From the NCBI GenBank assembly GCA_026225295.1, contig JAMFSN010000332.1, positions 1-47,009 on the forward strand: a DNA stretch of 47,009 bases, read 5' to 3'. Made by a program: the position numbers and the translations under genes. Numbering within the stretch: the stretch's first letter is position 1; every line of letters begins with the position of its first letter. Positions 6,993-17,773 of the stretch are shown here, one piece after another. The notes beneath the pieces are model-generated. The model had not been told where the DNA came from. It saw only the letters and a program-made list of their open reading frames with translations, and made no database searches. This DNA is from Frankia alni (lineage in GTDB: Bacteria > Actinomycetota > Actinomycetes > Frankiales > Frankiaceae).

Positions 6993-7991
6993 ATGGCCGG
7001 CCCGGACTCTAGACGAGGTGGTTCCCCGCCACCGGTTGGTGTCGCGCGCGTCGTCGCGGGGGGTCGGGGCTGGGTGCTCGGGCCCCGTGCCCGGCTGAGT
7101 TTCGGTCGGGCCGGATGTGACGTGCCGTTCGGCACCACTCCGCAGGATCTGATGATTTCCCGCTCGGCCGGTGTTCTGGCCGAGAGCGAAGGGGCGATCG
7201 TCGTCCGTAACACCGGTCGCCATCCGCTCCTGCTGCTGTCGTCGGACGGCAACGCGCAGATGATCCTCGCGCCGAGCACCGCGCAGTCGGCGGGCATGCG
7301 GGAGTTCCACATCGTCGCCGTCGGAACTCATGGTCAGCGCCATGAGATCAAGGTCATCCACCTGCGGGGCGGGGGGCCCAACCAGCCGGGGCAGGACACG
7401 GTCCAGCCCTCCATGCACCTCACTCCCACCGAGCGCCGGTTGCTGGCTGCGCTGTGTGAGAGCCGGTTGCGGACCGGTAACCCGCATGAGCCGTTCCCGA
7501 CCTATCGCGAGATCGCGTTGCGGGTCAAGCGGGACGACAACTACGTCCGGTCGCGCCTCGCGACGGTGCGCAACAACCTGGCCGGGCTCGGCGTGCCCGG
7601 GCTGGCCCGCGAGGAGCCGGGCGGGCCGCCCCGGCGGCTGCCGGACTACATCGTGCGGCTCGGCGAGTGGGTGATTGCCGCCGGGTTGATCACCCGCACC
7701 GATCTGATCATGCTCGACTCCGGGTCGGCCGGGTCCTCGGGGCCGTCGGCGCCGGTCGAGGTGTTGGCGGCCGACGAGGCCCGGTCGGCCAAGGGGCCCG
7801 ACCCGGCCCGCGGCGGGCCGTCCGGACCGCCGACCTCACCGCCGAAGCAGGCGTCCGGCGATCGGCTGTCCTCCGATGGGCCGGCCGCGGGTGCGTCGTC
7901 GCCGGAACCGGGGCCGGTACCGCCCGCGCAGTCCGGCTCGCCCCGGCGGCCTTCCTCGGCCCGCTCGGCCGCCCACCGGCCGTCCGGCTGA
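6993..7991 (+). CDS. FHA-like domain protein with winged-helix segment
   Basis: 332 residues. Residues about 20-125 resemble a forkhead-associated beta-sandwich (WVLGPRARLSFGRAGCDVPF, then SRSAGVLAESEGAIVVRNTG). Residues about 140-225 begin LTPTERRLLAALCE and continue with a helix-turn-helix-like stretch (YREIALRVKRDDNYVRSRLA), as in actinobacterial FHA plus winged-helix proteins. The last 100 residues are a low-complexity Pro/Ser/Ala tail. The start has a GAAAGGACGAG ribosome site. It may sense a phospho-threonine partner and bind DNA; both are inferred from the domains. It precedes purF by about 210 bp in the same direction. Confidence 0.7.
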   Translation: MAGPDSRRGGSPPPVGVARVVAGGRGWVLGPRARLSFGRAGCDVPFGTTPQDLMISRSAGVLAESEGAIVVRNTGRHPLLLLSSDGNAQMILAPSTAQSAGMREFHIVAVGTHGQRHEIKVIHLRGGGPNQPGQDTVQPSMHLTPTERRLLAALCESRLRTGNPHEPFPTYREIALRVKRDDNYVRSRLATVRNNLAGLGVPGLAREEPGGPPRRLPDYIVRLGEWVIAAGLITRTDLIMLDSGSAGSSGPSAPVEVLAADEARSAKGPDPARGGPSGPPTSPPKQASGDRLSSDGPAAGASSPEPGPVPPAQSGSPRRPSSARSAAHRPSG

Positions 7992-13371: not shown

Positions 13372-15900
13372 CTAGCCCGTGGCGGGCCGGCGGGGGTGCA
13401 GCGGCAGGATGCGGGCGTCGGGGCCCCGGTCGGTACGCACGGTGTTGGCCTCGTGGTCGAACCAGTCGGTGAGCGCGGCCAGCGGCATGGCCCCCCCGAT
13501 GTGCAGGCCCTGGCCGAAGTCGCAGTGCAGCGCGGCGAGCGCCTCGAGGAGATCCTGGCTCTCGATGCCCTCGGCGACGACCGTCAGCCCCAGACTGTGC
13601 GCGAGCTGGATGGTCGCGGCGACGATCGCGGCGTCACTGCGTTCCAGCAGCAGCCGTTGGACGAAGCCCCGGTCCACCTTGACCTCGTGCAGGACGCACC
13701 GCTGCAGCAACGTCAGGGATGAGTAGCCGGTGCCGAAGTCGTCCACCGCGATCCGGACGCCGATCTCGGACAGCGACACCAGGAGCTGCTTGGCGGTGTC
13801 CGGATCGGCCATCATCGCGGTCTCGGTGATTTCCAACGTCAGCGCCGGCGCTGGGATCTTGTAGGTCAGCAGGAGCTGCGCGACCTCGCCGGGCAGGTCG
13901 GTGTTGAGCAGGTTGCGGGCCGACAGGTTGACCGAAACGCCGACGTCATAGCCGGCCTCGCGCCAGCCGGCGCACGCCTCGAGCGCCTGGCGCAGGATCG
14001 CGCGGGTGAACTCCTGGACGAAGCCGGACTGTTCGACGGCGGGCACGAACGTCTCGGGGGTCAGCAGGCCGCGGACCGGGTGGATCCAGCGGACCAGCGC
14101 CTCGACCCCGGTCACCCGGCCGGTCCGGAGCTCGGTCTGCGGCTGGTAGTAGAGCACCAGCTGGCCCTCGTCGATCGCCGGCCGTAGCTCGGCGACCAGC
14201 GCCAGGCGGTCCAACGTGGAGTCGTCGCGGCTGGCCTTGTACCGCTGCCACCGCGGGTGCGAACCCTTCGCCTTGTACATCGCGATGTCCGCCCGGGAGA
14301 GCAGTTCCTCGACGTTCCGGCCGTCCTCGGGGTAGAGCGCCACGCCGACGGAGCCCTCGACGGCGAGCCGCAGACCGTCCACCTCGACTGGTCGGGCCAG
14401 TACCTCGGCCAGGTCGGCCGCGACCGATTCGGCCTGGGCGGCGTGGTCGATCCCGGTGACCAGGACCGCGAATTCGTCGCCGCCGAGGCGGGTCACGACG
14501 TCGCCGGTCCGGACGCTGTCCCGCAGCCGGTGCGCGACGCCCCGCAGGAGCCGGTCGCCGGCACTGTGTCCGAGAGTGTCGTTGACCTCCTTGAACCGGT
14601 CGAGGTCGATCAGCAGGAGGCCGAAGCAGTCGGGCCCTCCGGCGGCCAGCAACTGGCCGGCGTTCTCGAGCAGCAGGCGCCGGTTGCCCAGCCCCGTCAG
14701 GGCGTCGTGGGTGGCTTCATGCTCCTTTTCGACCGCCTGCCGCCGGGCCTGCTCGTACAAACGACCGCGCACGATGGCCGAGGACAGGGTGTGGGCGAAC
14801 GCGGCGAGCACCTGGTCGTCGTGCTCGGTCCACGCGACCGGGCTGGCGAAGGTCAGCTGCAGTTCGCCGATGGGTAGCCGGCCAGCTATCAGCGGCGCGT
14901 TCCGGCCGCTGATGTTGGTGGATCGGGTCCGGTGCCGCAGGGCGGTCAGGCGGGACCGCGCGGCCTCCGGCGCCGGCGGCGGCTTGGGCTCAGCCGACAG
15001 CTCGGCCAGTTCCTCGGCCGAGACCGGGTCGAGCTGGACGTTCACCGTCGTCGCTCCGAAAAGCTGACCAGCCCGCTCGTGGACCCGGGACAGCCCGGTG
15101 CGATCGTCGAAATCGGCGAGATCCTTCGCCGCGGCGTTGAGTTCCCGCCAGTCGTTGCGCTGCTCGACCGACCGTACGTTCGCCCGGTACGCGCTCCACA
15201 TGCCCAGCAGCACCGGTGGTACGACGACCAGGGCGATCGGATTCCAGTGGGCCAGGGCCAGGATCATCACGCCGACCGTCGCGGAGCCGGCCGCCATGGG
15301 AATCCGCCGGGATGTGAAGGCCTCCAGCAGTTGGGTAGGCCACGACAGGCCGGAGGCGGCGCTCACCACGGCCGTCACCGGGATCAGGGTCCAGATGCCG
15401 TAGGCGACGGCGCCCGCGGCCGCGGCCGGATAGCCGGCGGCGGCCGGCAGCGCCGCGGTTCCCCCGATCGCGTGGGCGACCAGGCATCCGAGGCTGACCC
15501 CCACGGCCATCGCCGCGCCGTTGAAGAACGTTTTGATCGGCCCCATCGGCCGGATCGCATAAAGCGCCAGGACCACCGCGGTCACCGTCGGGACCAGCCA
15601 GAAGCCGGGCAGGATGGCCAACGCCAGGACAAAGGTCGCTTCGCCGGTGGCCATCGACACGCGCTGGCCCTGCACACGGATGCGCAGCAGCGGCATCTCG
15701 CCGAGGAAGATCACGCCGGCGGCGGCCGCGAAGGCCGTGACGGACGGAACCGGTCGGCTCGAGGCGATGAGCGACGTGATCGCGATGCAGATCAGCCCGG
15801 CGACGTAGACGGTCGCCACCACGAGGTTGACGTTGCGGGCCCGTGCGGCGATCGGGGAGAGCCCGGCGGGGGCCGGCGTCCTGGGCGGCGCTCCGGACAT
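13372..15900 (-). CDS. Membrane GAF-GGDEF-EAL protein (c-di-GMP synthesis/hydrolysis)
   Basis: 842 residues. Residues about 25-220 hold several membrane helices. A GAF-like region (about 245-400) precedes a diguanylate cyclase domain with an intact GGDEF motif (about residue 471) and an upstream RTGD product-inhibition site. The C-terminal EAL phosphodiesterase domain has VEALVRW, VNLSARNL, EITETAMM, DDFGTGYSS, KVDRGF and AEGIES, so its metal ligands and general base look intact. Both activities are therefore possible; the net direction is unknown. Start ATG 15900 follows GAGGGGCAGG. The 500-bp region upstream has no gene and contains a promoter-like pair, a seven-codon reading frame and a palindrome, suggesting leader-mediated control. 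Confidence 0.93.
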   Translation of the reverse strand: MSGAPPRTPAPAGLSPIAARARNVNLVVATVYVAGLICIAITSLIASSRPVPSVTAFAAAAGVIFLGEMPLLRIRVQGQRVSMATGEATFVLALAILPGFWLVPTVTAVVLALYAIRPMGPIKTFFNGAAMAVGVSLGCLVAHAIGGTAALPAAAGYPAAAAGAVAYGIWTLIPVTAVVSAASGLSWPTQLLEAFTSRRIPMAAGSATVGVMILALAHWNPIALVVVPPVLLGMWSAYRANVRSVEQRNDWRELNAAAKDLADFDDRTGLSRVHERAGQLFGATTVNVQLDPVSAEELAELSAEPKPPPAPEAARSRLTALRHRTRSTNISGRNAPLIAGRLPIGELQLTFASPVAWTEHDDQVLAAFAHTLSSAIVRGRLYEQARRQAVEKEHEATHDALTGLGNRRLLLENAGQLLAAGGPDCFGLLLIDLDRFKEVNDTLGHSAGDRLLRGVAHRLRDSVRTGDVVTRLGGDEFAVLVTGIDHAAQAESVAADLAEVLARPVEVDGLRLAVEGSVGVALYPEDGRNVEELLSRADIAMYKAKGSHPRWQRYKASRDDSTLDRLALVAELRPAIDEGQLVLYYQPQTELRTGRVTGVEALVRWIHPVRGLLTPETFVPAVEQSGFVQEFTRAILRQALEACAGWREAGYDVGVSVNLSARNLLNTDLPGEVAQLLLTYKIPAPALTLEITETAMMADPDTAKQLLVSLSEIGVRIAVDDFGTGYSSLTLLQRCVLHEVKVDRGFVQRLLLERSDAAIVAATIQLAHSLGLTVVAEGIESQDLLEALAALHCDFGQGLHIGGAMPLAALTDWFDHEANTVRTDRGPDARILPLHPRRPATG

Positions 15901-16063
15901 GGGACCTGCCCCTCGCCTCGACGTTCCATCGGGCGGTCAGGTCGTAATCTGCCCCACCCGGATGACCCTGCGTCGTGGGCCCCGGGAGATCCGGATCTGG
16001 TGCGTAGTGGACATCGAACCCAAGGGACCCGAATCAGTATCCCATGGGGCGCGCAGAACGCGG

Positions 16064-16097
16064 CGACAGGGGGCGACCACGTGGTCGTCCCCTGTCG
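16064..16097. promoter_or_regulatory. 34-nt palindrome in GGDEF-EAL leader
   Basis: Halves 16064-16080 and 16081-16097 are complementary over 17 positions except for one G/T pairing, centred on CACGTG. In RNA it would give a long stable hairpin about 165 nt before the GGDEF-EAL start; in DNA it could be an operator. No T tract follows. Confidence 0.5.
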
Positions 16098-16192
16098 TAC
16101 CGGCCTGCCGGAGTGGTTGCTCCGTTGATGGCTCAGATGTCGTTTGTCCCTTTACGATCCTGGCGATTCGAAGGTTTTGTGTCCGAGTGGGT

Positions 16193-16216
16193 TCAGCCCC
16201 AGATCCAGTTGCTCAC
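16193..16216 (-). promoter_or_regulatory. Candidate Trp-rich leader peptide MSNWIWG
   Basis: On the minus strand a near-perfect ribosome site (AAAGGAGG, 16222-16229) is followed at ideal spacing by GTG (16216) and only six more codons, giving MSNWIWG, then TGA. Two of seven codons are Trp. A minus-one slip at the GGGG run would continue the frame as GLNPLGHKTFESPGS before TAA. It may be a regulatory leader peptide for the GGDEF-EAL gene 293 bp downstream, or the broken start of a former small gene. Inferred from sequence only. Confidence 0.35.
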
Positions 16217-16358
16217 GGTACCCTCCTTTCGACGCTTAGTAGTCACCGCGGAGCGCGAGCGTTGTGGTCCGTCGCGGCGTGATGAACAGCGAATCGATTA
16301 CTGGATGTCAGCGATGCGATCGGGTTGCGCGCGCCGCCCGGCTCGTTTCGCTGCTTTC

Positions 16359-16386
16359 AGATTAGCCCGGACGTCACTTAAAGCAA
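16359..16386 (-). promoter_or_regulatory. Promoter-like -35/-10 pair for GGDEF-EAL leader
   Basis: On the minus strand TTGCTT (16381-16386) and TAATCT (16359-16364) are separated by 16 nt, a good match to a vegetative actinobacterial promoter. The predicted transcript would start near 16352 and have a leader of about 450 nt before the GGDEF-EAL gene. Confidence 0.4.
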
Positions 16387-16398
16387 TCCTCTGACTCG

Positions 16399-16422
16399 TT
16401 TCAGTGACTAAGAGTCACGAAA
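16399..16422. terminator. Hairpin over stop codon of MFS gene
   Basis: TTTC-A-GTGACT / AGTCAC-GAAA arms (ten pairs, one bulged A, AAG loop) span the TGA of the MFS gene. No T tract follows, so termination is uncertain. Confidence 0.35.
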
Positions 16423-17773
16423 TGTCAGGTTTTTGTCCGAACTTGAGAGCCTGCACGACGTTTGTCCGGGGCCAGGTGGCCCACAGTCCGATCACCGCGC
16501 AGGAGCCGGCCGCACCGGCCAGCGTGACTACCGTCCGTGGTGCGAGATGGTCGGCGGCCACACCGGCGACCAACAGTCCGGCGGCCTGGGCGAGTTGCAG
16601 CCCGGCCGACGCCACCCCGAACGCCTGGGCGCGCATCTCGTTTTTCGTCGCGCGCACGAACGCGGCATTGGCCGGCAGGTTGAACGCCAGTCCGCTGCCG
16701 GCCAGCCCCCACAGGGCCATGAGCCCCGGGACGCTGGGGACGAGTGCGGTCAGGCCCAACGCGCCGGTCCCCGCCAGGGCCAGCGGGAGCATCAGCGCGA
16801 GCTGGCCAGCCAGGGGGAGCAGTCGGCCCACGGCGAAGGTGCCGGCGAAGACCCCCAGCGGGACAGCCGCCGTGAGCAGACCGGCGTCGAGGTTCGCCCG
16901 ACCGTGGCGGTGGGCGATCGCGACCGCCAGGCCTTCCGGAGCGATGGCGAAGAACACGATGATCCAGACCAGCAGCGCGAGCGAGCGCAGGACCGGGTCG
17001 CCCAGGACGTAGGTGAGGCCGTCGTTCCACCGCGCCCGTTCCGACGGCGCCCGTTCCGACGACTCGGGTTGCGGCGACGCGGGTTGCGGCGACGCGGGTT
17101 CCGGCGTGCTGGGCGAAGTCTGGGTGCCGGGCGGCCGGCGGCGGGCCGGGGGCCGGGGTGCGGCGGCCGGGCGGCTTCGCACGACCAGCAGGAGCATCGC
17201 CGCGGAGACCAGGAATGTCAGGCCGTCGAGGGCCAGGGCGCCGCGGACCCGCAGGGTGGACACGATCACCCCGCCGGCCGCGAACCCGAGCACCTGGCCG
17301 CCCTGGCTGCTCAACTGGGTGAGCGTCGTCGCCGCCACGTAGCGCGGCCCGGTCAGCAGGTCGGCCAGCAAGGCCGAGCGGGCCGCCTCGAACGGTGGCG
17401 CCAGCAGGCTGACCGCGGCGAGCAGCGGCAGCAACACCGCCAACGGGATTCCCGGAACGACCATGAGGGCGACCACCACCGCCCGGGCGATGTCGCACCC
17501 GACCAGCACGTCGCGCCGCGGGTAACGGTCGCCCAGAATGGCCAGCCACGGCGCGGCCAGCCACGGTAAGAGCGTCAGCGCGTACACCAACGCCGACAGC
17601 GCCGCCGAGGACGTGCGGTCGTAGACGAGGATCGCCAAGGCGACCTTCGCGACCTGGTCACCGACGATCGAGGCCAGGTGCGCGAAGTACATCCCTCGGA
17701 ACTCGCGGTTCCGCAGGATTCCGGTCAGGCTGACCGGTGCGTCATCCGGCCGGTCCACGGACGAAGGTGACAT
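16415..17773 (-). CDS. MFS transporter
   Basis: A 452-residue integral membrane protein of the major facilitator superfamily with about 12 hydrophobic segments. It starts with the short cytoplasmic NREFRGMYFAHLASIVGDQ pattern typical of the enterobactin-exporter/drug-efflux-like MFS subgroup, and has the A-motif-like GDRYPRRDVL after the second helix. The central cytoplasmic loop (about residues 200-245) is a Pro/Ser/Gln-rich linker with short repeats. Substrate unknown. There is no ribosome site before ATG 17773; a TAACTT hexamer ends 6 nt upstream, so the transcript may be leaderless. Confidence 0.88.
   Translation of the reverse strand: MSPSSVDRPDDAPVSLTGILRNREFRGMYFAHLASIVGDQVAKVALAILVYDRTSSAALSALVYALTLLPWLAAPWLAILGDRYPRRDVLVGCDIARAVVVALMVVPGIPLAVLLPLLAAVSLLAPPFEAARSALLADLLTGPRYVAATTLTQLSSQGGQVLGFAAGGVIVSTLRVRGALALDGLTFLVSAAMLLLVVRSRPAAAPRPPARRRPPGTQTSPSTPEPASPQPASPQPESSERAPSERARWNDGLTYVLGDPVLRSLALLVWIIVFFAIAPEGLAVAIAHRHGRANLDAGLLTAAVPLGVFAGTFAVGRLLPLAGQLALMLPLALAGTGALGLTALVPSVPGLMALWGLAGSGLAFNLPANAAFVRATKNEMRAQAFGVASAGLQLAQAAGLLVAGVAADHLAPRTVVTLAGAAGSCAVIGLWATWPRTNVVQALKFGQKPDIS

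Follow-up and report, generated by a model that had tools for sequence, protein, structure and literature searches.

The 47,009-nucleotide stretch of Frankia alni DNA analysed here (the window) contains a frame of only seven codons, two of them for tryptophan, ahead of a gene for a GGDEF-EAL protein, and the question raised by this locus is what so short a frame does there. A preliminary description likened the arrangement to ribosome-dependent attenuation, which would link translation or tryptophan status to c-di-GMP. From sequence comparisons, we infer that the frame is a real, translated mini-ORF, and the class of such mini-ORFs at GGDEF-EAL genes suggests a very small regulatory gene of a kind not described before. 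As a leader, it would place a c-di-GMP enzyme under the control of ribosome behavior over some seven codons; as a microgene, it would make c-di-GMP responsive to a gene product among the smallest known.

Leader of the Window Gene

The elements of the locus described here lie on the minus strand. The GGDEF-EAL gene (13372..15900; 842 amino acids, with Pfam GGDEF and EAL domains) starts with the ATG at 15900 and is separated from an MFS transporter gene (16415..17773) by an intergenic stretch of 514 nt (15901..16414). Within this stretch lies the mini-ORF VSNWIWG-stop (GTG-AGC-AAC-TGG-ATC-TGG-GGC-TGA; 16193..16216), with Trp at positions −4 and −2 from the stop and the Shine-Dalgarno (SD) sequence AAAGGAGG (16222..16229) 5 nt before the GTG. 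This confirms the earlier report of an SD and a seven-codon, two-Trp frame, with GTG as the start. The 34-nt palindrome reported with it was also recovered (16064..16097, 95 nt past the mini-ORF stop). It contains one A–C mismatch, has a predicted energy of about −28 kcal/mol, and scores 14, compared with a maximum of 11 among 300 shuffles. The palindrome itself is without a U-tract, and no intrinsic terminator with a U-tract was found in the window scan, though the strong hairpin is present. It occurs at a single place in the genome when up to 3 mismatches are allowed. As a repeated element it was rejected, with up to 2 mismatches, at 5 of 35 family genomes versus 1 of 35 for the control.

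The promoter-like pair TTGCTT-16-TAATCT is likewise present (16359..16386, about 140 nt before the mini-ORF) and is the sole TTGnnn/TAnnnT pair with a spacing of 15–19 found in the window leader; its PWM score gave p = 0.04 (200 shuffles; uncorrected, 22 tests). However, a stricter sigma-70 scan of the window returned no promoter.

When the 514-nt leader was dinucleotide-shuffled 20,000 times, the combination of AAAGGAGG with a two-Trp mini-ORF arose once, and that with a mini-ORF of any kind 16 times. Genome-wide, there are six AAAGGAGG-N4-8-RTG sites versus four for the reversed pattern; therefore, the word itself is not enriched. By inspection, two of the other five sites start long frames, one starts a 47-residue frame resembling one of the long ones, and two lie inside longer open frames. 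On contig C174 of genome G000, two gene starts 8 kb apart (L131 and L132) share an identical AAAGGAGGAGATCGTG and encode similar proteins, and the second frame ends after 47 codons, an apparent duplicate with a shortened copy.

At the DNA level, the other 34 family genomes gave only short matches to the window leader (best E 8.6e-4), and plasmids gave none. Literal NWIW-type frames occur in 3 of 35 genomes, the window included. A covariance search against Rfam 15 yielded no match at the gathering score, with weak matches far below it at E up to 10. In the predicted minimum-energy fold, the Trp-Ile-Trp codons CTGGATCTGG (16199–16208) are fully paired with CCAGATCCGG (15991–16000), the partner nearer the GGDEF-EAL start. 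A short inverted repeat, GTGACT-CTT-AGTCAC (16404–16418), overlaps the MFS stop codon.

Mini-ORFs Ending in Trp-x-Stop

Homologues of the N-terminal region of the window protein were found in 22 of 393 genomes of the class and none on plasmids. Among 17 aligned N-terminal regions, five match MASE9 weakly and there are a few GAF matches, while the window protein's own region matches neither. Upstream of some of these homologues stand VSLTEKWG-TAA (G045), MSKDWK-TAG (G122), MSKMWA-TGA (G061), MRSTSWN-TAA (G104), MSAHEWL-TAG (G124b) and, with a weak SD, MRGNDWL-TGA (G215b). These six, all outside the Protofrankia group considered below, span four further families. Little is shared among the mini-ORFs beyond a second-last Trp, and TGA, TAA and TAG are all used, which argues for a constraint on the peptide or on its termination. 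Members range from 6 to 15 residues and end in Trp-x-stop. Each member found has one Trp, except in the window, where two are separated by Ile; the 11 SD mini-ORFs upstream of the family that contain Trp all have it at −2, near the peptide end.

No such ORF was found upstream in G183, G192, G127, G067, G084, G044, G054, G124a or G215a, and G136 and G048 were set aside. When further homologues were sought in the family of G122, only G122 and G061, among five, had one. Loci L053, L056 and L063 were discarded because they are not ahead of a GGDEF-EAL start, and SD-bearing W-x frames at window position 7351, L277 15352, L152 13585, L154 5706 and L161 719 were taken as background.

The SD mini-ORF rule (4–20 amino acids; five bases of AAAGGAGGTG at a spacing of 4–11) was set after the motif was seen, and WG-stop was widened to W-x-stop midway; the G104, G124b and G040 cases were found afterwards. 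The rule picks out 20 SD mini-ORFs in the 21 kb preceding 28 family genes, 11 of them with penultimate Trp, compared with 12 and none, respectively, in the 29 kb ahead of 40 other GGDEF-EAL hits. Counted per gene, where roughly 300 nt or more could be scanned, the figures are 9 of 27 family genes versus 0 of 38 other GGDEF-EAL genes (Fisher 1.5e-4). With one per lineage, they are 6 of 12 hand-chosen representatives (5.8e-5), and none of 1000 shuffle rounds reached 9/27 or 6/12. The background over 390 kb of G122, G215, G045, G000 and G016 is 3 of 137 with penultimate Trp, all of at least 14 residues. Outside the count of nine stand G008 (where a masked stretch probably breaks the frame), G012 (contig break), G215b (weak SD) and G040 (other strand). 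Among the 40 control loci, seven (L217–L223) are distant homologues whose match reaches the N-terminal region; none of them has the W-x ORF under the SD mini-ORF rule, some having little upstream sequence.

Relatives in the Protofrankia Group

The comparison set includes one genome of the genus, and the family set includes Frankia and Protofrankia records. We use Protofrankia group as a label for G002, G008, G012, G016 and G020, a putative assignment. This group has two GGDEF-EAL paralogues, p1 and p2. The p2 leaders carry one or two SD mini-ORFs of the xGVSWG type in all five species: VNAGVSWG alone; VNTGVSWG with VNAGVSWG; MNNGVSWG with MNGVSWG; MNNGVSWG with MKKNNDEGMNGVSWG; and MNNGVSWG with MRKNDADTNGVSWG. 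The p2 gene starts 223–623 nt past the first mini-ORF; in G012, mini-ORFs and gene are on separate contigs and are presumably linked across the break. Conversely, the five p1 genes, the nearest orthologues of the window gene, have no such mini-ORF upstream. Conservation in close relatives, which the preliminary description would have had decide the matter, is therefore mixed, failing at p1 and holding at p2 and in the other families that have the mini-ORF.

Matches to GGNGTNAGYTGGGGNTRA occur in 8 of 393 class genomes, namely the five of the Protofrankia group and G026, G309 and G228; by inspection, the latter three are without the SD-start context and were rejected. The pattern SD-start-TGGGGCTGA has 16 matches, spread over 12 of 35 family genomes. 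Six of these matches lie in p2 leaders, one is that of the window, and six were dropped as out of frame by inspection. The remaining three, the VTEPTPACLRDRWG frame of three Protofrankia genomes, were set aside because they lie within a stretch that we take to be tmRNA-like.

The p1 genes are preceded by a different conserved leader, riboswitch-like in appearance. Lying directly before the GGDEF-EAL start (L046:7730-7817, L047:7835-7922, L048:7757-7844, L049:5359-5446, L050:7370-7457), it is strongly conserved, and its predicted three-way junction, of 25 pairs with one two-sided change, reaches the ribosome site. It had no Rfam match at E up to 5 and is possibly an unrecorded riboswitch-like RNA. 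Another conserved block, apart from the mini-ORFs, immediately precedes the GGDEF-EAL start of p2 (L152–L155). It contains two similar words, GTAGTACATGATC and GTAGTGAACGATG in G016, and could be an operator or promoter.

A tree of 37 proteins groups the window gene with p1 as sisters, p2 being the next to join, and loss of the mini-ORF in p1 is likely. The mini-ORF label requires 5 changes, compared with 10.3 in shuffles and with 0 of 500 as low, a contrast that is inflated by near-copies and leaves out G040. G045 and G104 form long branches. The Protofrankia group and the other ORF-bearing group are separated by the four control proteins and by several distant homologues; the tree therefore does not establish common descent or a single origin.

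Association with an MFS Gene

A both-strand scan revealed a mini-ORF, MPHNKIWT, in G040 that the same-strand test had missed. It lies on the strand opposite to the GGDEF-EAL gene, about 50–104 nt before possible starts of a divergent MFS gene and on the same strand as the latter. Homologues of the window MFS protein stand beside the module in G040 (43%), G045 (37%, directly after GGDEF-EAL), G061 (43–55%) and G122 (42%), within loci of up to 20 kb. The order is MFS-mini-GGDEF in the window, G122 and G061, mini-GGDEF-MFS in G045, and GGDEF divergent from mini-MFS in G040. Outside G040, module-linked mini-ORFs are upstream of GGDEF-EAL, on its strand. Within loci of the same size, no MFS homologue was found beside the mini-ORF in G104, G124b, G215b or Protofrankia p2. 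At mini-ORF-less loci there was none in p1 (five), G067, G127, G183, G044, G084, G215a, G124a or G192, nor on the short contigs of G136, G048 and G054; those for G067, G044, G084 and G048 are weak negatives, having no GGDEF-EAL hit at E < 1e-30 in the module scan.

The mini-ORF thus belongs to a small module (mini-ORF, MFS, GGDEF-EAL), of which it precedes one gene. The W-x-stop signature together with this module offers a rule for finding cases that gene annotation would normally miss.

Action in Cis or in Trans

We propose, tentatively, that the mini-ORF acts in cis on expression of the downstream module gene, a reading that falls somewhat short of an even chance and that we nevertheless favor, narrowly, over an autonomous micropeptide gene. 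The ribosome may linger on the Trp codon, or while terminating after Trp-x, and a slowed ribosome would alter the output of the downstream module gene. In the window, this effect would run through the leader containing the palindrome. The target would be the membrane-anchored GGDEF-EAL protein in most lineages and the MFS neighbor in G040. Charged tRNA-Trp, a nascent-peptide effect, a release factor or a drug handled by the MFS pump could each cause the slowing. Cis control is suited by the position of the mini-ORF, which in every case found lies ahead of one module gene and on that gene's strand.

Several observations count against it. The first is the strand of the G040 mini-ORF. Hairpins are a second: among 11 leaders tested, the stem after the ORF exceeded all 500 shuffles in only four, G000 (+95), G045 (+35), G122 (+27) and G061 (+23). 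It was borderline in G104 (18/500) and G016 (14/500), with none above shuffles in G124b, G215b, G002, G008 and G020. An antiterminator, sought as pairing of upstream sequence with the 5′ arm in five leaders, did not rise above shuffles in any. Promoter-like sites lie between mini-ORF and gene in G124b (p = 0.01) and G215b (p = 0.03; both uncorrected, 22 tests), and a promoter position common to the leaders was sought and not found. The separate conserved block at the p2 gene and the absence of the mini-ORF from several family genes, p1 included, point the same way. Because the G040 copy leads the MFS gene and gene order varies, our estimate for cis control fell from an even chance to its present level, and that for a microgene rose from unlikely to a realistic possibility.

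An autonomous microgene is thus the strongest competitor, less probable than cis control and still plausible. The SD, the ORF of 6–15 codons and a terminator would form a separate transcript, whose Trp-x peptide would act in trans with the neighbors. Changing gene order, terminator-like hairpins and tandem copies suit this reading: the members remain neighbors although their order and orientation change, a hairpin follows 23–50 nt past the stop in G045, G122, G061 and G104, and in Protofrankia the mini-ORFs occur in tandem and keep a conserved C-terminus with a variable N-terminus. The promoter-like sites that follow the mini-ORF in G124b and in G215b are also consistent with it. However, outside G040 the module-linked mini-ORF always precedes GGDEF-EAL on its strand, the peptide is conserved between families only in Trp-x, MFS homologues are missing beside the mini-ORF in G104, G124b, G215b and Protofrankia p2, and no modifying enzyme was recognized among the 36 ORFs scanned around the window copy. 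It is conceivable, if rather unlikely, that the Trp-x peptide, made directly from a tiny gene of its own, is carried across the membrane by the adjacent MFS protein, if there is one, and perceived by the membrane portion of the adjacent GGDEF-EAL protein; c-di-GMP would thereby follow the peptide.

Classical Trp attenuation, in which the ribosome would wait at TGG when Trp-tRNA is scarce, letting an antiterminator form and coupling c-di-GMP to tryptophan, is improbable. The conserved Trp codon close to the stop, two such codons in the window, a strong hairpin in some leaders and the predicted Trp and Cys leader peptides of Actinobacteria (PMC1262725) are in its favor. Yet most mini-ORFs have one UGG, the window is without a U-tract, no antiterminator exceeds shuffles, and no tryptophan gene is among the scanned window ORFs. 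What survives of the attenuation first proposed is an SD mini-ORF with Trp that recurs as a conserved class across several actinomycete families and in some is followed by a strong hairpin; its Trp-codon run, antiterminator and window U-tract were not found, and in G040 the mini-ORF leads MFS rather than GGDEF-EAL. The link to tryptophan status is not borne out, the common feature being a single second-last Trp and not a run of Trp codons.

A chance pairing of a good SD with a short frame, with the W-x-stop pattern an after-the-fact artefact, is very improbable. The motif was partly defined after inspection, and a few SD-bearing W-x frames occur elsewhere in the loci, but the leader shuffles (1/20,000), the family shuffle rounds (0/1000), the controls (0/38), the mini-ORFs of five Protofrankia-group species and the three cases that turned up after the motif was stated (G104, G124b and G040) argue otherwise. 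Finally, an extra base in the GGGG run does add 15 residues (GLNPLGHKTFESPGS), as the preliminary description held, but its alternative of a decayed or frameshifted small gene can be rejected almost entirely, since the frames of relatives in other genera also terminate at this W-x position, using different stop codons.

Comparison with Known Systems

No leader peptide or attenuator before c-di-GMP genes was among the results listed by a literature search, with most subscription journals outside its scope. If it acts in cis, the mini-ORF would represent a Trp-x-stop class of leader not described before. Whereas the 24 residues of TnaC include Trp12 and Pro24, the peptides here have 6–15 residues with Trp at −2. 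TnaC is described in PMC8429421 as a tryptophan-sensitive ribosome-stalling leader peptide.

Actinobacterial trp leaders, according to PMC1262725, carry UGG doublets or triplets together with poly-U terminators. The mini-ORFs resemble the trp and cys leaders of that source in being short leader ORFs, with regulatory codons near the stop (cys) and hairpins (trp). In contrast to those Trp or Cys runs before amino-acid genes, they mostly have one Trp at −2, precede GGDEF-EAL or MFS genes, and showed no U-tract or antiterminator. Short ORFs before structural genes are abundant in Actinobacteria, and PMC4833913 considers reinitiation at stop-to-start distances of 1–65 bp. The distance to the GGDEF-EAL start here is 75–623 nt (ten leaders with the start set), and in G040 about 50–104 nt to possible MFS starts. 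None of the trp/cys leaders, reinitiation leaders or TnaC fits in full.

Among the 36 window ORFs, Pfam scans found no P450. Biarylitide minimal precursor genes are, according to PMC13417212, tiny ORFs made into RiPPs by dedicated P450 enzymes, and the mini-ORF is like them in its similarly tiny size.
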